From contig JABSOQ010000009.1 of assembly GCA_013216195.1 (NCBI GenBank), positions 1 through 53,639 on the forward strand: a stretch of 53,639 bases of DNA, given 5' to 3'. Numbering within the stretch: position 1 is the stretch's first letter; each line of letters starts with the position of its first letter. Below, piece after piece: positions 11,136-35,880 of this stretch. This stretch comes from Bdellovibrionales bacterium (GTDB lineage: Bacteria; Bdellovibrionota; Bdellovibrionia; Bdellovibrionales; UBA1609). The translations under genes and the position numbers were made by a program. A model generated the notes under the pieces. It had not been told where the DNA came from. It saw nothing but the letters and a program-made list of their open reading frames with translations, and did not search any database.

Positions 11136-11642
11136 ATGAACAAAACCATTGTTTTTATTAGGCACGGGCATAGAGACACAGAAGACCGCCGCCTAGACAA
11201 TGGCTTAACCGAAAAAGGCCAGAAGCAGGCAAAGCGTCTCGCTCAATTCTACAGTAAGCGTTTTCAAAAAATGAACTTCGAAGAGTCAGACCTGATGTTG
11301 TTGACTAGCCCGAAAAAGAGATGCATTGAGACTCTAAAACCAATCGAGCAGGCTTGCGGGTTTTCGCTGAGTCAAAGCGAAGAACTGATTGAGGCACAGG
11401 GTGGAGAGACGTTCGAAGATTTGTCTGACCGAGTTTCTCGGTTCGTAGAGTGGTGGAAGGTTGAAGGTCCTCCATTGACGATTGTTTGCTCTCATGGTGA
11501 CTGGCTTCCGATTGCCGTTCATAAGCTCTTAGGAAGCGTCGTATATTTCAAAAAAGGTGGCTGGTTAGAGCTCGATTGGGTTGAGGATCAGGCTCATTTG
11601 CGCTGGTATCTTCCTACTTTCAAGCATTTTCCTAACTCTTAG
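11136..11642 (+). CDS. SixA-like histidine phosphatase
   Basis: A 168-residue histidine phosphatase superfamily protein. The catalytic RHG sits at residues 9-11 in VFIRHGHRDTEDRR, followed by GLTEKGQKQA; the second catalytic His is in IVCSHGDWLP. Size and motif fit SixA, which dephosphorylates phosphohistidine on Hpt or phosphocarrier proteins, but small phosphoglycerate mutase-like phosphatases look similar. ATG at 11136 has GGGGGA at a normal distance; ATG at 11130 is too close to it. Its end overlaps the convergent Ppx/GppA gene by 11 bases. Confidence 0.8.
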   Translation: MNKTIVFIRHGHRDTEDRRLDNGLTEKGQKQAKRLAQFYSKRFQKMNFEESDLMLLTSPKKRCIETLKPIEQACGFSLSQSEELIEAQGGETFEDLSDRVSRFVEWWKVEGPPLTIVCSHGDWLPIAVHKLLGSVVYFKKGGWLELDWVEDQAHLRWYLPTFKHFPNS

Positions 11643-12636
11643 AGCTACTGAGGCTGAAGTCTTCGGGGTCAAGAGTTTCAATTTGTGACAGGATAATTCC
11701 ATCACGGAGTGAGCAAAATGAGGTTTGCAAGGTCTTGGTGTGTAGGATGGCGGCAATCTCTTCGAGTAGAATTGTGCCCGGTATGATCATGTCTCGTCGT
11801 TTTGCCTCGAGTCCCTCAAGAAAACTCAAGGTGGCTCTTGAGGCTGTTTCCAATTGTTTTGAGAGTTCCCGCAATTCACTAAATGTGAACTCCATTGAAT
11901 CTGATGAGACCGTCAACTCTTTAATGTAGTCAGAGGAGCTATTCATTCGAGCTTCCCTCAAATTCAAAATACGCCCAATGGCTTTGATTGTTCCAGCTGT
12001 TCCGATCAAGTGTGGGTAGGCTTCACCATCAACGTGCTTAGATAGACCGGTGAGCTTTGCTCGAATCTTAGCTCTTAAGTTTTTGATCTCGCTCTCACGG
12101 TCTTCAGGCTCACTAGGAGGGTTCACCTTCGGAAACATCTGCTTCAGTCGTTGACTGCCAAGGGGAAAACTATGGCTCCAGAGAATCTCTCGGTCAGCAA
12201 CAAGGCTGATTTCAGTGCTTCCACCCCCGATGTCGACAAATGCGGAGCGCGCTGGAAGAGTTTTGGTGTTTTGTAAGATGCCCTTGGCGATTAGGCGGGC
12301 CTCTTCGGCTCCTGAAATGACCTGAATCTTATAGTCGGTTTCTCGATAAATCTGCTCGACCACGTCTTCAGAATTTCTTGCTGTTCTGAGAGCGCTCGTC
12401 GCGATTGTAATAGTTTTATCTACCGAGTACTTTTCAGACACCTTTTTCCATTTTGAAAAAGACTTCACTAGCCCAGCAAGAGACTCTTTGTCGATCACAC
12501 CAGTGCTAAATACGCCTCTTCCAGGCCTAATCATATCTTTGTGTTTGTAGACGAGTTCGTGCGATCTGGGGCTCAGCACCTCATAGATTGAGTATCGGAT
12601 CGAATTGGTGCCCATATCTATAACGGCTAATCGCAT
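11632..12636 (-). CDS. Ppx/GppA family exopolyphosphatase or guanosine pentaphosphatase
   Basis: The 334-residue protein has the ASKHA-fold signatures of this family: DMGTNSIRYSIYEV at the N-terminus (phosphate-1 loop), VDIGGGSTEIS (phosphate-2 loop) and LIGTAGTIKAI. The length fits the short form without the C-terminal HD domain. Members release phosphate from polyphosphate or convert pppGpp to ppGpp; sequence inspection cannot separate these. The gene is divergent from pstS with the Pho box between them, so a role in phosphate economy and possible Pho control are plausible. Confidence 0.9.
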   Translation of the reverse strand: MRLAVIDMGTNSIRYSIYEVLSPRSHELVYKHKDMIRPGRGVFSTGVIDKESLAGLVKSFSKWKKVSEKYSVDKTITIATSALRTARNSEDVVEQIYRETDYKIQVISGAEEARLIAKGILQNTKTLPARSAFVDIGGGSTEISLVADREILWSHSFPLGSQRLKQMFPKVNPPSEPEDRESEIKNLRAKIRAKLTGLSKHVDGEAYPHLIGTAGTIKAIGRILNLREARMNSSSDYIKELTVSSDSMEFTFSELRELSKQLETASRATLSFLEGLEAKRRDMIIPGTILLEEIAAILHTKTLQTSFCSLRDGIILSQIETLDPEDFSLSSSKS

Positions 12637-12729: not shown

Positions 12730-12796
12730 ATCACCCCTATGCATGAGCCGACTTCTGATTGATAAACGAAGTTCAAGCAAAGTGGAGATGAAAATC

Positions 12797-13801
12797 ATGC
12801 GTATTTTAGCGGTCGTTCTAGTGTGTGTTTTCACACAGTTCGCGAGTGCCGAATTGTTGATAAACGGTGCCGGAGCCTCGTTTCCGTACCCGCTTTATTC
12901 GAAGTGGTTTGCAGAGTATGCAAAAATCGACAAATCCGTGAAGATCAACTATCAGTCGATTGGTAGCGGTGGTGGTATCAGGCAGTTCTTAAAAGGAACC
13001 ACAGACTTTGGTGCTTCAGACGCACCAATGAAAGACACTGAGCTAAAAAAAGCCAAAACTCCAATTCTACACATACCAACTGTACTTGGTGCTGTCTGCG
13101 TGTCTTACAACTTACAGGGCTTGGGTGGAGAGCTGAAACTCACGCCTCAGGTTCTCGTCGAAATCTTTTCTGGCAAAATCCAGAAGTGGGATAACAAAAA
13201 GATTAAAAAGCTGAACCCGGCTCTAAATCTGCCGAAAGATACCTACATCATCGTAGCTCATCGCTCAGATGGAAGTGGCACAACGGCTGTGTTTACTGAT
13301 TACCTAGCTAAGGTCAGCCCTGCCTGGAAAAAGAACTATGGTTACGGCAAGGGTATCAAATGGCCTGTGGGGCTTGGTGGCAAGGGCAATGAGGGTGTAA
13401 CGGGTTTGATTAAGAACAACCCTGGCTCAATTGGCTACATAGAGATGACCTATGCTGTGGCAAACAAGATGCCTGTTGCTGCACTCAAGAACCGTGAGGG
13501 TGAGTTCGTAGGGCCCACTGAGGAGTCAGTGGCCAAAGCTGCTGCCGGAGCTGAGATACCGCAAGATTATCGAACCTCAATAACTGATGCCGCAGGTAAG
13601 GGCTCTTATCCTCTTGCTGCATTCACGTACCTGTTGGTGTCATCAGAAATGGATGGGCCAAAGGGCGAGAAGATAGTCGAGTTTCTCAAATGGGCTATGG
13701 GGCCAGGTCAAAAGTTGGCTGGGCCTCTTCATTACTCTCCGCTACCAAAGACTCTGACTGAGCGAGTGAAGCAAACAGTTGCTCAGATAAAGGTGAAGTA
13801 A
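12797..13801 (+). CDS. pstS: Phosphate ABC transporter substrate-binding protein PstS
   Basis: The 334-residue precursor has a Sec signal peptide (hydrophobic residues 3-13, cleavage after A-S-A) and the PstS start of the mature protein, LLINGAGASFPYPLY. Further hallmarks are SIGSGGGIRQF, FGASDAP, the phosphate-contacting HRSDGSGTT and GSIGYIEMTYA. It captures periplasmic phosphate for PstCA. The ATG at 12797 with GGAG 9 bases upstream is preferred over ATG at 12788. It is the first gene of the operon behind the Pho box. Confidence 0.96.
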   Translation: MRILAVVLVCVFTQFASAELLINGAGASFPYPLYSKWFAEYAKIDKSVKINYQSIGSGGGIRQFLKGTTDFGASDAPMKDTELKKAKTPILHIPTVLGAVCVSYNLQGLGGELKLTPQVLVEIFSGKIQKWDNKKIKKLNPALNLPKDTYIIVAHRSDGSGTTAVFTDYLAKVSPAWKKNYGYGKGIKWPVGLGGKGNEGVTGLIKNNPGSIGYIEMTYAVANKMPVAALKNREGEFVGPTEESVAKAAAGAEIPQDYRTSITDAAGKGSYPLAAFTYLLVSSEMDGPKGEKIVEFLKWAMGPGQKLAGPLHYSPLPKTLTERVKQTVAQIKVK

Positions 13802-13806
13802 TCAGC

Positions 13807-14805
13807 ATGCAGTTAGAAGTCGCCGAAAAATTAACTGTCAAACAAGCAAAGCCAAAAGCGAGTTCCGCCCCTCGGCGAAAGCTAGATATTCATTTCGGAG
13901 ACCGAGTCTTTTATTACATTCTGAAGGCCAGCGCTTGGGGAGTGGTGGGTTTGCTGCTGCTAATGGTTGGCTTGTTGTTAGATATGTCTTGGCCGGCTTT
14001 TGTGGAGTTTGGCCCCAAGTTTCTTATCAACCCTGAGTGGAACCCATGGACAGGTGAGTTTGGAGCTTTGTCATTCGTCTACGGAACAGTCGTCTCTTCA
14101 CTTATAGCCGTGGCTCTAGCTCTGCCGGTGAGTGTAGGTGTTGCTTTGTTTCTGAATGAGTTAGCTCCCACTTGGTTAGCTAGGCCTGTTGGTTTTTTTG
14201 TTGAGATGCTGGCTGCGATCCCAAGCATAGTCTACGGCATGTGGGGGCTGTTTGTATTAGCTCCTTTCTTGCGAAATTACCTTCAGCCTTTCTTGCATGA
14301 AACCTTAGGTTTCTTGCCTCTTTTTCAAGGGCCTATGTTGGGCTACGGGATGTTGGCTGCCGGAATCATCTTGGCCGTAATGATCACGCCGACCATTGCG
14401 AGTATATCGAGAGAAGTCTTTAAAGCTATACCATTAGGTTACCGAGAGGCTGCTCTTGGCTTAGGTGCCACTCGCTGGGAGATGCTTAAAATTGCAGTTC
14501 TGAAAACTGGCGCCTCGGGTATTATCGGTGCTACGATTTTGGGGCTGGGCAGGGCTCTTGGTGAGACTATGGCTGTGACTTTGGTAATCGGAAACAAAGC
14601 GCACATCTCAGCCTCACTTTTTGACACAGCTCAAACCATGGCATCAGTTTTGGCCAATGAGTATGCAGAAGCCGACTCTGACCTACAGCTCGCTGCGCTT
14701 ACCGCAGTTGGCTTAACACTCTTCATTGTGTCGCTTTTTATCAACTCTATAGCCCGTTATGTGGTCTGGCAGGTCGATAAGAAGTATGCAGGGATGGGTC
14801 GTTAA
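13807..14805 (+). CDS. pstC: Phosphate ABC transporter permease PstC
   Basis: A 332-residue inner-membrane protein with about six membrane segments after a basic N-terminus of about 35 residues. The permease coupling loop appears as EVFKAIPLGYREAALGLGAT, followed by RALGETMAVTLVIGN, which is typical of PstC. It forms the phosphate channel with PstA. It starts 5 bases after pstS and its TAA stop overlaps the pstA ATG by one base, so translation is coupled. Confidence 0.95.
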   Translation: MQLEVAEKLTVKQAKPKASSAPRRKLDIHFGDRVFYYILKASAWGVVGLLLLMVGLLLDMSWPAFVEFGPKFLINPEWNPWTGEFGALSFVYGTVVSSLIAVALALPVSVGVALFLNELAPTWLARPVGFFVEMLAAIPSIVYGMWGLFVLAPFLRNYLQPFLHETLGFLPLFQGPMLGYGMLAAGIILAVMITPTIASISREVFKAIPLGYREAALGLGATRWEMLKIAVLKTGASGIIGATILGLGRALGETMAVTLVIGNKAHISASLFDTAQTMASVLANEYAEADSDLQLAALTAVGLTLFIVSLFINSIARYVVWQVDKKYAGMGR

Positions 14806-15671
14806 TGGGTTTGCAAGCCACTTCTTTTCAGGATCGAAAACGAAAGGCCATTAACATTGCGGCATTGGGTGCTGTGCTAGGCTTGGCATTTTTGGCAGCT
14901 GTGCCTTTTGTATTGGTGTCGGGCTACATTTTGGTCAAGGGTATCGGTTCGGTCGATTGGGCCTTTTTTACAGAGCTTCCAAAAGGGCCTGGGGAAACGG
15001 GTGGCGGAATGGCAAACGCTATGGCGGGCACGGGTGTGCTTGTCACTATGGCTTGTTTGCTAGGGATCCCCTGGGGTATGGCCACGGGGATCTATTTGAG
15101 CGAGTACGGCCACGGCAAGACGGCTAGCATACTCAGGTTCACAGTTGATCTTTTAACCAGCGTACCCTCGATCATCGTTGGTATCTTTGTTTATGGCCTC
15201 ATTGTCGTTCACATCGGTTATTCGTCTTATGCCGGAGCTGCTGCGCTGGCGATCATCATGCTGCCCATCGTGGCGAGATCTACTGAAGAAATTATGAAAC
15301 TGATACCCAACAGTGTCAGGGAGGCCGGGCTCGCTCTTGGCCTGCCTCGGTGGAAGGTGATTCTTCGTATTCTGGTGCCAGGCTGCATGGGCGGTTTGGT
15401 GACAGGTTTTATGTTGGCCATTGCAAGGGTGGCCGGAGAGACGGCTCCGCTTTTGTTTACCGCATTTGGAAATCAATTCTATTCGACCTCTCTCGATCAG
15501 CCGATCGCCTCATTACCTGTTCAAATCTATAATTTCGCTAAAAGCGGATTCCCCGATTTGGTGAGGCAGTCATGGGCTGGAGCACTTGTGCTTGTGGGGT
15601 TGGTTTTCTTTTTGAACTTTGGCACACGAAGCTTGCTGTATTTGAAAAACCGTAAGGAGATCAAATCATGA
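14805..15671 (+). CDS. pstA: Phosphate ABC transporter permease PstA
   Basis: A 288-residue inner-membrane permease with about six membrane spans. Family markers are [11 protein letters not shown], the periplasmic [23 protein letters not shown], the coupling loop [17 protein letters not shown] and [17 protein letters not shown]. It pairs with PstC and the ATPase PstB. Its start overlaps the end of pstC by one base and its TGA overlaps the pstB ATG. Confidence 0.95.
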
Positions 15672-16438
15672 CTTCATCGACGGGTCCGATTTTGACAGTT
15701 GAGAACTTGAATGCATACTTTGGAGACTTTCACGCGGTGAAGGGGGTAAACCTCGAGGTTCAGCGTAATGAAGTGGTGTCTTTGATTGGCCCTTCTGGCT
15801 GTGGAAAGTCGACTTTCATTCGTTGTCTAAACCGACTACACGAAGAGGTCCCGTCGGCAAATTGTGAAGGACGGGTTTTGATCGAGGGGCAAAACATTTA
15901 CGCCGAAAATGCTGACCCCGTGGTAGTGCGAAGAAAAGTCGGTATGGTGTTTCAGAAGCCGAATCCGTTTCCTGGTTTGAGTATTTTTGAAAACGTCGCT
16001 CTTGGCCTTAAGTTAGCCGGCATTACCAAAAAGAGTGTTGTGACCGAAATCGTAGAATGGTCACTTAGAAAGTCAGCTCTGTGGGATGAGGTCAAAGACA
16101 GCCTGTCTTCGCCAGGCTTAAGCCTTTCAGGCGGTCAGCAGCAGAGACTTTGCCTTGCCAGAACCTTGGCTGTGAAGCCTCCAGTTATACTAATGGATGA
16201 GCCCACCTCAGCTCTTGACCCGATCTCGACAGCTAAAATTGAAGAGTTGGTGATGGAGCTCAAGCAAGAGGTCACCGTGGTGATTGTGACCCACAACATG
16301 CAGCAGGCCTCTAGAATCTCTGACAAAACGGCTTTCTTTCTAATGGGAGAGCTTATGGAGTTCGATGAGACGTCAGCTTTGTTTACGAACCCGAAAAATT
16401 TGAAAACTGAACAATATATAACTGGAAGGTTTGGGTAG
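15668..16438 (+). CDS. pstB: Phosphate ABC transporter ATP-binding protein PstB
   Basis: A 256-residue ABC ATPase. Walker [10 protein letters not shown] is at 41-49, the PstB-specific VFQKPNPFP near 95-102, the signature LSGGQQQR at 153-160 and Walker [14 protein letters not shown] near 173-185; the H-loop His is in [10 protein letters not shown]. It powers phosphate import and, with PhoU and PhoR, conveys phosphate status. It overlaps pstA by 4 bases (ATGA). All catalytic residues are intact. Confidence 0.97.
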
Positions 16439-16457: not shown

Positions 16458-17123
16458 ATGATACGCCACGTCGACAGTGATTTAAATTCTTTAAAAGACC
16501 TTTTGTTGACCATGGGCGGCCAGGTTGAGAAGTCTCTGTCTCGTCTTGACGACAGTTTGGCTGATTCTGACATGAAATCTTTACAAGAAGTGCACGAGTT
16601 TGAGGCTGATATCAATCGGCTCCATCTCGAAGTCGACGAGTCTTGCTTGGTATTATTGGCTAAGCAAGCCCCCTTTGCCAGCGATCTCCGGCTGGTTCAG
16701 TCGGTCGTAAAAATCAACACCGACCTCGAGCGGATGGGAGACCTCATTGTCAATGTGGCCTCGAGTGCCGAACGTTATCTGCGATTCACGGTCAGAGTTC
16801 TGCCGCCACAATGGGGGCAGATGATGGAAGAGGTTCGCTGGATGGTGAGCAACTCATTGAATGCATTCGTGAAGCTAGATCCCGCTCTAAGTAAACAGGT
16901 TTTGAAGCACGATGACATAGTCGATTGTCACAATACTGATTTGACCGGCGTGTTCAAAGAGCGCATGAAGAGTCAGTCGATTGAGATAGATGCTGGGGTA
17001 GAAGCGCTCGCAATGGTGAAGTGCCTCGAGAGGCTCGCAGATCACTCGACGAATATTGCAGAGGAAGTGATTTTTATCGTCACGGGAGACGATATTCGAC
17101 ATGGGAGGAGACAAAGTGTTTGA
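16458..17123 (+). CDS. phoU: Phosphate signalling protein PhoU
   Basis: A 221-residue helical protein with two PhoU repeats; each half has the acidic pattern with E/DxxxD metal-binding residues (for example FEADINRLHLEVDE and the second-half HDDIVDCHNTD). The phrase LVQSVVKINTDLERMGDLIVNVA and the C-terminal CLERLADHSTNIAEEVIFIVTG are diagnostic. PhoU links the Pst transporter to PhoR and represses the Pho regulon when phosphate is plentiful. It lies 19 bases after pstB in the same operon. Confidence 0.95.
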   Translation: MIRHVDSDLNSLKDLLLTMGGQVEKSLSRLDDSLADSDMKSLQEVHEFEADINRLHLEVDESCLVLLAKQAPFASDLRLVQSVVKINTDLERMGDLIVNVASSAERYLRFTVRVLPPQWGQMMEEVRWMVSNSLNAFVKLDPALSKQVLKHDDIVDCHNTDLTGVFKERMKSQSIEIDAGVEALAMVKCLERLADHSTNIAEEVIFIVTGDDIRHGRRQSV

Positions 17124-17160
17124 GGTTCAAACGATTCAGAGAGCAGGGGGAAATCTAGCA

Positions 17161-17868
17161 ATGAACAGCAACCGTATTTTGGTGGTCGAGGATGAAGCTG
17201 AAATTCGTCAGCTGATCGTGTTGCACCTCAAACGTCAGGGCTATGAGGTGCATGAAGTTGGTAACGGTGAAGAAGCTGTTAGAGCTCTGTCTGAGAGAGA
17301 CTATCAATTAGTAGTGCTTGATTGGATGTTGCCGGGAATGAGTGGGCTCGAGATCACTCGTTGGATTCGTTCACGAGAAGATTTCAACGTGACTCCAATT
17401 CTAATGGTGACAGCCAAAGTTGAGCCTGAGCACATTGCCGCAGGTCTAGATGCAGGTGCCGATGATTACTTGCCAAAGCCTTTCGATACCTTAGTTCTGA
17501 TGGCTAGAGTTAATGCCCTTATGAGAAGGCATCAATGGTTGGGGCAGCAAAATCAAGAAGTGATGCCATCTTCAGTGATCACAGTTGGTGCTCTTGAATT
17601 AAGACCTGATGAGTATGAGATCACTCTTGATGGCGTGAAAATGGATCTCACAAAATCTGAGTACAAGCTTATGGAATGCCTAATGGGCAATCAAGGTAAG
17701 GTTCTGTCTCGTGAGAGCCTGATCAAAGAGATACAAGGTGATGGAGTTAATGTGGTAGGTCGAACTGTCGACACCCATGTTTTCGGTTTACGCAAAAAAC
17801 TGGGTGTTCACTCAGAGATGATCGAGACAATTCGTGGAATTGGTTACCGAGTTAAGTACCAATCTTGA
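17161..17868 (+). CDS. phoB: Phosphate regulon response regulator PhoB
   Basis: A 235-residue OmpR-family regulator. The receiver domain has E10/D11, phospho-acceptor D54 in VVLDWMLPGMSG, the Thr in ILMVTAK and Lys in DDYLPKPF. The winged helix carries LTKSEYKLMECLM, GRTVDTHVFGLRKKLG and IRGIGYRV. ATG at 17161 follows AGGGGGAAA; the longer frame from 17101 is not needed. Its position between phoU and phoR and the Pho boxes in this window support the PhoB assignment over a generic regulator. Confidence 0.94.
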   Translation: MNSNRILVVEDEAEIRQLIVLHLKRQGYEVHEVGNGEEAVRALSERDYQLVVLDWMLPGMSGLEITRWIRSREDFNVTPILMVTAKVEPEHIAAGLDAGADDYLPKPFDTLVLMARVNALMRRHQWLGQQNQEVMPSSVITVGALELRPDEYEITLDGVKMDLTKSEYKLMECLMGNQGKVLSRESLIKEIQGDGVNVVGRTVDTHVFGLRKKLGVHSEMIETIRGIGYRVKYQS

Positions 17869-17878
17869 AAAGCGCAAA

Positions 17879-19342
17879 ATGCGTAAAAAGGGGGCTGTGT
17901 TGAGCCCCTCTGTGTTCCCTACGAGACTGTTTCGCTGGTTTCTCGGAAAGCAAATTCTGACAGCAGGTGCCCTGCTGATCGCTTTAGATATCTGCTTGAT
18001 CATCTGGATCGAGGGCCGTGGAGACCTGTCTCAAGATGCACGAACCCTTGCAAGGGAAGTCGTCTTTTTGGCCCTGTTCTCCTCTTTTGTTCTTATGGTT
18101 TCAGTGTCGATTTTTATGGCTCGTCGGTTGGTGATTCCACTCGGCCGTCTTATTGAAAAGACAAGAAGATTGAGAAAGTTCCCTTTCGAGGAAGAGGACT
18201 ACTCACACCGAGAGCTTGCTTTTGATGAGCCAGGTGAGTGGTATGATCTCGAAAGAGCCCTCAATAAGCTTGGCCGAGATTTAAGAATGAAGACCATTCG
18301 GCTTTCTAGAGAGAAGACAGAGCTCAGAACGATTATGTCGGCGATGAATGAGGCCATCTTGGCTGTAACTGTTGAAAGAAAGCCTCTGTTTTACAACCCT
18401 GAGTTCGCCTTATTGTTTGGTGTAGAGAACAAAGCTGCCGATGATCTCCTGATCAGTGAGATGATAAGAGACCCGGCCGTATTAGGGGCTTATGAGAAAT
18501 GCCTTGAGCAGGGGCAGTCGACTCGAGTCGAAGGAGGGTTGGCTCTTGATATAGCGGGTGACAGTAAGTTCTTTGAGGTGAGTATTTCTCCTCTTAAGAA
18601 AAAACACAACCAAGAGGTTTATGGAGCTGTTGCGGTTTTCACAGATATCACAGACCTCAAGAAAGCTGATCGACTACGTATCGATTTCGTCGGAAACGTT
18701 TCTCATGAACTTCGAACACCATTGACCTCGATCAAAGGTTATTTGCAGACGGTTCGTATGGATATAGAAGAGAATCGGCTTGGTGAGTGCTCAGACTTTT
18801 TGAACATTGCTGAAGGAAACGTCGACAGGCTGAAGCTTCTGGTGGACGACCTTCTTGATCTCTCAAAGATCGAGTCGGGTGACCGTTTGAGAAAAACAGT
18901 GGTCAACACTCGCGAGCTTACCGAGGGCGTTTTGAGTATGATTGAATCAAAAGACCATGTGATTCAGATGAACTACTCAGTAGATGAATTCACAGCAGAC
19001 TCTACGCGAGTCGAACAGGTCTTGCGAAACTTACTTCAGAACTCAGTTCGCTACGTGCCAAAGGGCAGAAACATTTGGGTCGACTGGCTTCAAGATCAGA
19101 GCAAAAATCAGGTGTGTTTGAGAGTTAAAGACAATGGTCCGGGTATACCTGCTAAGCATCATACCAGGTTGTTTGAGCGCTTCTACAGAATCGATGAATC
19201 TCGTGCTAGAGATGTCGGCGGCACTGGTATTGGCTTGTCGCTTGTTAAGCATATCATGCTGAGACATGGTGGGAATGTGATCTTAAATAGCCGAGAGGGT
19301 GAAGGCGCTGAGTTCATTTGCGAGTTCCCTCAAGAGCAATAA
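17879..19342 (+). CDS. phoR: Phosphate regulon sensor histidine kinase PhoR
   Basis: A 487-residue membrane kinase. Two membrane segments lie near 24-45 and 60-80 with only a short loop between them, so it has no real periplasmic sensor, as in PhoR. A HAMP-like linker and a PAS domain (about 150-255) follow. The dimerisation box has H276 in VSHELRTPLTSIKGYL, and the ATPase domain shows the N box LRNLLQNSVRYVP, DNGPGIP, RFYRIDESRAR and GGTGIGLSLVKHIM. It phosphorylates PhoB at low phosphate. ATG at 17879 lies 10 bases after phoB; an in-frame GTG at 17834 overlapping phoB is possible. Confidence 0.94.
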   Translation: MRKKGAVLSPSVFPTRLFRWFLGKQILTAGALLIALDICLIIWIEGRGDLSQDARTLAREVVFLALFSSFVLMVSVSIFMARRLVIPLGRLIEKTRRLRKFPFEEEDYSHRELAFDEPGEWYDLERALNKLGRDLRMKTIRLSREKTELRTIMSAMNEAILAVTVERKPLFYNPEFALLFGVENKAADDLLISEMIRDPAVLGAYEKCLEQGQSTRVEGGLALDIAGDSKFFEVSISPLKKKHNQEVYGAVAVFTDITDLKKADRLRIDFVGNVSHELRTPLTSIKGYLQTVRMDIEENRLGECSDFLNIAEGNVDRLKLLVDDLLDLSKIESGDRLRKTVVNTRELTEGVLSMIESKDHVIQMNYSVDEFTADSTRVEQVLRNLLQNSVRYVPKGRNIWVDWLQDQSKNQVCLRVKDNGPGIPAKHHTRLFERFYRIDESRARDVGGTGIGLSLVKHIMLRHGGNVILNSREGEGAEFICEFPQEQ

Positions 19343-35183: not shown

Positions 35184-35825
35184 ATGATGCAAAAAACGGA
35201 AAAAATATCAGTCACTTGTGATGTGGAGTATGTACAGAGTTCCGGCGATAAGCCAGCCTGCACTCTGCTATTACATGGATTTATGCAAACGGCAAATCGC
35301 TTCGCCAAGCAAGTCGAACAGCCCCTCAAGTCGCGAAACAAGCAGTTTCTGTCATTGCAGGCTCCTTACCCCGTCTACAAACAACTGCCAGATCGCTACC
35401 AAGTGGGCTACTCATGGTACTTCTTTGATCCAATTTCTAAGCAACACATTGTCAGCAAAGAAACGGCAACTCGTTTTGTGAAAGAGTGTTTGAAGCATCT
35501 AGATCTTCGAGAGAGCATTGAGACAATAGTTTCGTTTTCGCAAGGCGCTCATTTGGCGCCCCACGTGGCGCGCGTGCTGCCAAATGTAAAGAAAGTGATC
35601 GGAATCGGCGGTAGGTACTATGCCCGTGATTTCGACACAGCACCTAACTTCTCGCTGATTCAAATACACGGCGAAAAAGACCAAGTTGTCGATGTCGAGG
35701 AGACCACTCGGCAGCATGAAGAGCTGTTGAGCCGCGGAATTCCGTCTCATATCAGCCTCTTGCCGGGCGTTGGGCACGAAATTAATGATGCTGTTCGCAC
35801 AGAGTTAAACAATCAGCTTGGTTGA
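35184..35825 (+). CDS. Serine hydrolase of the phospholipase/carboxylesterase type
   Basis: A 213-residue alpha/beta hydrolase. The oxyanion motif is LLLHGFMQ (H31-G32), the nucleophile S119 in SFSQGAH (first Gly of GxSxG is Ser), the acid D166 in HGEKDQVVD and the base H198 in PGVGHEI. The arrangement matches small cytosolic esterases and lysophospholipases such as the carboxylesterase/thioesterase 2 family. No signal peptide is present. The Pho box for the next operon begins 38 bases after its stop, so it is not part of that operon. Confidence 0.8.
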   Translation: MMQKTEKISVTCDVEYVQSSGDKPACTLLLHGFMQTANRFAKQVEQPLKSRNKQFLSLQAPYPVYKQLPDRYQVGYSWYFFDPISKQHIVSKETATRFVKECLKHLDLRESIETIVSFSQGAHLAPHVARVLPNVKKVIGIGGRYYARDFDTAPNFSLIQIHGEKDQVVDVEETTRQHEELLSRGIPSHISLLPGVGHEINDAVRTELNNQLG

Positions 35826-35862: not shown

Positions 35863-35880
35863 CTGACACAATCCTGACAA
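35863..35880 (+). promoter_or_regulatory. Second Pho box, identical to the pst one
   Basis: CTGACACAATCCTGACAA repeats exactly the 18 bases of the pstS-upstream site, again as two CTGACA-type 7-mers with the AATC spacer, followed by A rather than diverging at once. It lies 188 bases before the barrel gene start at 36068, so a 5' leader of roughly 150 bases is implied. Confidence 0.85.

Follow-up and report, generated by a model that had tools for sequence, protein, structure and literature searches.

An 18-mer shared by the pst operon and a porin–lipoprotein–nuclease operon is a candidate Pho box in a Bdellovibrionales bacterium

The window analysed here, a 53,639-nucleotide stretch of a Bdellovibrionales genome, contains two identical copies of the 18-mer CTGACACAATCCTGACAA, one before pstS and the other, at positions 35863–35880, before an operon that encodes an outer-membrane barrel, a lipoprotein and a lipoprotein nuclease. 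The copy at 35863–35880 is very likely a Pho box to which PhoB would bind, with phosphorylated PhoB activating the operon for the acquisition of phosphorus from extracellular or prey nucleic acid. We infer PhoB binding, induction at low phosphate and the scavenging route from the sequence. A shared switch before phosphate-uptake genes and porin–lipoprotein–nuclease genes suggests that DNA or RNA is digested outside the cell when phosphate is scarce.

Two exact copies of a direct repeat in the window

The 18-mer consists of the direct repeats CTGACAC and CTGACAA separated by AATC. Seven conserved and four less conserved nucleotides form an 11-bp period, and six of the seven positions are repeated. 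Both copies are located in intergenic regions on the forward strand, are oriented toward the downstream gene and are separated by 23,151 bp, as the earlier note had reported in describing an exact copy 23 kb away. The genome (4,105,046 bases in 296 contigs) contains exactly these two copies and none outside the window. Within the window, no further site was found at up to three mismatches, with 0.05 expected in shuffles. Given the base composition, chance would produce a second exact copy 1.3e-4 times per genome and ~4e-9 times in a segment as long as the intergenic region concerned, which upholds the note's view that two exact copies are very unlikely to arise by chance. The genome scan for CTGACA-N5-CTGACA that the note had proposed, run as a pattern search, returned exact matches only at the same two places; the remaining 22 sites each contain one mismatch, versus 14 for the reversed control pattern.

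The probable start of pstS (12788) lies 58 bp downstream of the end of the first box. The mechanically assigned ORF start at 12743 leaves just 13 bp to the box and probably lies too far upstream. The phoU, phoB and phoR genes lie directly behind pst (16458–19342) and provide a cognate PhoB–PhoR pair in the same genome. The best NCBIfam model for the phoB product is PhoB (TIGR02154; 207 bits), under the cut-off of 296, and the phoR product is likewise under the cut-offs of TIGR02966 (254 bits; cut-off 334) and PnpS (289 bits; cut-off 400). A Ppx/GppA-family phosphatase gene (11632–12636, reverse strand) is divergent from pstS and shares the intergenic region with the first box.

The second box starts 38 bp beyond the end of an esterase-like gene (35184–35825), and a further 187 bp separate it from the ATG of the barrel gene. 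A clear −10 element was not recognised. A riboswitch or leader RNA before the barrel gene was rejected because the window contains no Rfam family and the leader between the second box and the ATG is no more stably folded than shuffled sequences (z 0.63).

Table 1. Coordinates of the two candidate Pho boxes and the associated genes in the window
Feature	Positions	Strand	Basis or remark
Pho box of pst operon, CTGACACAATCCTGACAA	12712–12729	+	exact copy; same motif family before pstS in related genomes
pstS	12788–13801	+	TIGR00975, 375.8 bits (cut-off 205); start 12788 probable, first in-frame ATG 12743
pstC-pstA-pstB	13807–16438	+	first gene PF00528; middle gene from position; pstB TIGR00972, 384 bits, over cut-off
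phoU	16458–17123	+	TIGR02135, 177 bits, over cut-off
phoB response regulator	17161–17868	+	receiver and winged helix; ORF opens at 17101, likely start about 17161
phoR sensor kinase	17834–19342	+	HisKA/HATPase/PAS
Candidate Pho box of nuclease operon, CTGACACAATCCTGACAA	35863–35880	+	exact copy; matrix score at operon
Porin-like outer-membrane β-barrel, 505 aa	36068–37585	+	AlphaFold model, Foldseek, VIA
Lipoprotein, 589 aa	37623–39392	+	lipobox SLGC; low conservation
Lipoprotein nuclease, 966 aa	39392–42292	+	lipobox; 5'-nucleotidase C-like N-terminal region (weak), OB-like region, endonuclease/exonuclease/phosphatase (EEP) domain
Membrane protein, 325 aa	42355–43332	+	orthologue (38% identity) directly behind nuclease in other genus member

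Motif model from the pstS promoters of relatives

The same motif family is observed at pstS in seven related genomes (G002, G006, G011, G012, G013, G017 and G033). The pstS promoters of the relatives contain TTAACAAAACCCTGACAG, CTAACCGAATCCTGACAG, TTAACCAAAAACTAACAG, TTAACAAAAGCTTAATAC, TTAACTAAAATCTGACGT, TTAACAAGTTCCTGACAT and CTAACGAAAACCTCACAA, and an 11-bp direct repeat is common to all of them. Their alignment yields a consensus of about YTRACnnAAnCYTRACA. The earlier note had taken the two copies in the window to give the PhoB consensus, a step that does not hold because an identical pair cannot define one; the consensus comes from the relatives. In two Bacteriovoracia genomes, pstS is preceded at a distance of about 80 bp by CTAACAGAATCCTAATAG and TTAACAAAATCCTAACGA. 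Sites are also found before core Pho genes beyond the pstS genes of the window and its relatives: in G006 (L063 1501–1517), the family match CTGACCAGTTCTTGACA is located about 31 bp before a putative ppk1, a polyphosphate kinase gene read by eye. In G074 (L199 1322–1339), CTAACACAATCCTAATAA lies beside an Na/Pi cotransporter-like gene, on the strand opposite to the gene.

Genome-wide site searches were pattern searches, and the matrix was applied to the operon loci. The family pattern YTRACNNRWNYYTRACA has three matches in the genome, namely both CTGACACAATCCTGACAA sites and C46:18037, which was rejected as a Pho box since it falls within a long, repetitive coding sequence. Wide scatter of the motif, which the note had named as a ground for refuting a second Pho operon, is not observed. 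At one mismatch, the pattern has 119 matches genome-wide versus 182 for the reversed control; weak sites are uncallable from the pattern alone because there is no excess over the control. The best-scoring extra match (C142:2810, ATAACAAAACCCTGACA) is located in a short gap by the 3' end of an efflux-type gene with no gene start targeted and was treated as noise.

Recurrence of the box at orthologous nuclease operons

The order barrel–lipoprotein–nuclease recurs in seven more genomes from this family. A contig search with the nuclease alignment identified the operon in many further Bdellovibrionota MAGs, including Bdellovibrionia, Bacteriovoracaceae, Halobacteriovorax, Pseudobacteriovorax and Oligoflexus. 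To score the operons, pstS sites alone were used to train a matrix, which was applied to the 300 bp upstream of the leading gene in 20 operons; 256 other genes in the same loci served as controls. A strong box, defined by a score of at least 13, is found at 7 of the 20 nuclease operons, from two classes (Bdellovibrionia and Bacteriovoracia), versus 1 of the 256 control genes, and the sole control gene that reaches 13 is the window's own pstS. The scores are 19.5 for the window, 14.9 for L116 from the same genus, 13.0 for L131, 19.7 for L121, 17.9 for L120, 13.8 for L129 and 13.6 for L134; that of the window is partly circular, with its own pstS site in the training set, and those of the other six are not. 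The boxes at these six operons are TTAACAAAATCCTAATAA, CTAACCAAACCCTAATAA, CTGACAAAGTCCTAATAA, CTAATGAAAACCTAATAA, TTAACAAGTTTTTAACAA and ATAACGCAAATCTGACAA. L120 was counted as an operon and stands in the raw control list since its start was not entered as an operon start. Fisher's exact test gives a P value of 2.6e-8 (3.2e-7 when the window is left out), which is a guide rather than an exact probability, as the seven boxed operons are interrelated and the loci are those that the searches happened to return. Together with the motif family in the pstS promoters of relatives and with phoU, phoB and phoR behind pst, this result supports the earlier proposal that the nuclease genes form a second Pho-regulon operon.

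The other 13 operons have no box detectable by the matrix within 300 bp upstream, and Pho control of the nuclease operon, as predicted from these sites, is thus recurrent, with gain or loss, and not universal. Genus g20 has box-like repeats before phoB or pstS and none before the nuclease operon. PhoB relatives with 46–49% identity are encoded in the boxed Bacteriovoracia genomes. In three of these (G070–G072; L120, L121 and L129), neither PhoU nor a true PstB was found, so the box there would work without a recognised Pst system; the MAGs may be incomplete. PstB-like matches in G070–G072 and G074 were rejected because their neighbourhood resembles amino-acid ABC transporters. G024 and G004 (L109 and L110) contain a phoB–phoR-like pair and an unboxed nuclease operon, and no pstS, phoU or PstB match was found in them.

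A probable third operon of the regulon

The 12-base core ACACAATCCTGA has exactly three copies in the genome, the two CTGACACAATCCTGACAA sites and C255:3974. The third site, CAAACACAATCCTGAAAT (G000:C255:3971–3988; L212 3971–3988, L104 972–989), is located about 60–76 bp before a gene for a 439-residue protein, gene A. Gene A is followed by DUF3450-ExbB-ExbB genes and then, as read from the ORFs, by ExbD-TonB-TPR and a large protein. A gene A homologue (49.6% identity) with similar neighbours in the Bacteriovoracia genome G072 (L206) has CTAACGAAACCCTAATAA 105 bp upstream. At least one further operon, the gene A–TonB/ExbB cluster, probably belongs to the predicted regulon, although its site came to light post hoc and carries less weight than the matrix test on 20 operons.

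Proteins of the nuclease operon

The barrel protein matches no Pfam or NCBIfam family. Its AlphaFold model (pLDDT 72, pTM 0.76) adopts a porin-type β-barrel fold, with a Foldseek E value of 4e-10 to OmpC/OmpF-type porins and VIA Z scores of 16.2 to maltoporin and 14.2 to OprP (Z 14–16 over about 270–310 residues, rmsd 4–5 Å). The substrate is not readable from the modelled fold, as maltoporin, general porins and OprP/OprO fall within about two Z units. The model of the 589-residue lipoprotein is too poor to interpret (pTM 0.52), and its matches are not meaningful over the full length.

The nuclease contains an EEP domain (PF03372, E 3.9e-8), and its N-terminal region weakly resembles 5'-nucleotidase C at a value below the cut-off (PF02872, E 0.0049). 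The EEP motifs FNxENL, VEIQD, GNHFNSK, GDFN and SDHD are intact, and the core catalytic residues are invariant in eight orthologues. The alignment with PDB 9sf9 (E 1e-64) spans the OB-like and EEP parts. The score against ExeM_NucH (NF033681) is 119 bits, below the cut-off of 300, and the protein is therefore ranked by sequence as a relative of ExeM/NucH and not as a filed member. The 325-residue membrane protein has no Pfam or NCBIfam match. Its gene is probably a fourth operon gene in this genus; among the family genomes examined, it is found directly behind the nuclease gene only in the other genus member.

Proposed regulation and alternative explanations

In the proposed mechanism, phosphate limitation would lead PhoR to phosphorylate PhoB, and the two CTGACA-type half-sites 11 bp apart at 35863–35880 would act as the PhoB operator. 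By analogy with Escherichia coli PhoB (PMC4415409), phosphorylated PhoB would occupy the box head-to-tail and, as at pstS, bring in RNA polymerase to switch on the barrel–lipoprotein–nuclease operon together with the fourth membrane protein in this genus. The lipoprotein nuclease, at the surface or in the periplasm, may cut extracellular or prey nucleic acid, and the porin-like barrel may let nucleotides or phosphate cross the outer membrane. Release of phosphorus from nucleic acid outside the cytoplasm is proposed by analogy with Xds (PMC6746945, PMC12351708) and EddAB (PMC4899797). The co-induced Pst system would import the released phosphate. We also consider, as a tentative and rather doubtful extension, that the barrel, lipoprotein and nuclease form one dedicated outer-membrane machine for surface digestion of nucleic acid and inward channelling, an ancestral Bdellovibrionota module repeatedly captured or lost by PhoB, with prey DNA as a regulated phosphorus source.

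The site may bind PhoB while the operon mainly serves predation, biofilm or DNA clearance, with phosphate as one cue and no need for the phosphorus to feed the cell. This explanation is unlikely but deserves weight: the host group is predatory (relatives are named Bdellovibrionia and Bacteriovoracaceae), the 13 unboxed operons fit it, and Bdellovibrio is reported to release nucleases during predation (PMC7925074). The repeated association of box and operon in two classes, along with the pstS and ppk1 sites, points instead to phosphorus supply.

The remaining explanations concern the identity of the repeat. OmpR-family regulators commonly bind direct repeats about 10–11 bp apart. The spacing observed here fits this habit, many such regulators are encoded in the genome, and PhoB itself scores below its model cut-off, so that another OmpR-type response regulator common to both operons could be the ligand in place of PhoB. 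This is improbable given that the motif follows pstS, ppk1 and phoB-linked promoters from genome to genome and that phoB is encoded within the same pst operon. Recent duplication of DNA or a functionless chance repeat, which would suit copies identical even in the spacer, is highly improbable: the identity stops near the edges of the 18-mer, chance accounts for about 1e-4 copies genome-wide and far fewer at that place, and diverged versions stand at orthologous operons. PhoB control remains the preferred reading. It offers a usable Pho-box model for Bdellovibrionota and a likely job for a conserved operon whose proteins match no known family in two of three cases, and it would connect nucleic-acid scavenging with phosphate starvation in a phylum made up largely of predators.

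Comparison with known systems

A full-text literature search combining 'Pho box' and 'Bdellovibrio' yielded no paper. The architecture of the box is ordinary, whereas the operon that it would control is largely uncharacterised. As in E. coli PhoB-type Pho boxes, two 7-nt direct repeats with a 4-nt spacer and an 11-bp period precede pstS and a second operon, and phoBR is encoded with pst. The half-site differs, being CTGACA or YTRACA here and CTGTCAT in E. coli. A Pho box in the broader sense is compatible with the lack of CTGTCAT because the consensus normally varies between species (PMC4415409).

The closest functional parallels are extracellular nucleases that supply phosphorus. In Pseudomonas aeruginosa, the two-gene operon EddA–EddB allows DNA to be used as a phosphorus source through an extracellular DNase (PMC4899797), but the partner there is a PhoD-like phosphatase and not a barrel and lipoprotein. 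The ExeM/NucH nucleases (PDB 9sf9 and 9sf8) share the OB-like region followed by the EEP catalytic domain, whereas the nuclease of the window has an extra N-terminal domain and a lipobox. In Vibrio cholerae, PhoB activates the secreted ExeM-kind nuclease Xds, which feeds phosphate from extracellular DNA along a route completed by OmpK, periplasmic phosphatases and Pst (PMC6746945, PMC12351708); a similar arrangement is predicted here. Xds is encoded by a separate gene and contains a lamin-tail domain, while the lipoprotein nuclease described here has an N-terminal region weakly similar to 5'-nucleotidase C and is encoded in one operon with its own porin-like barrel and a second lipoprotein.
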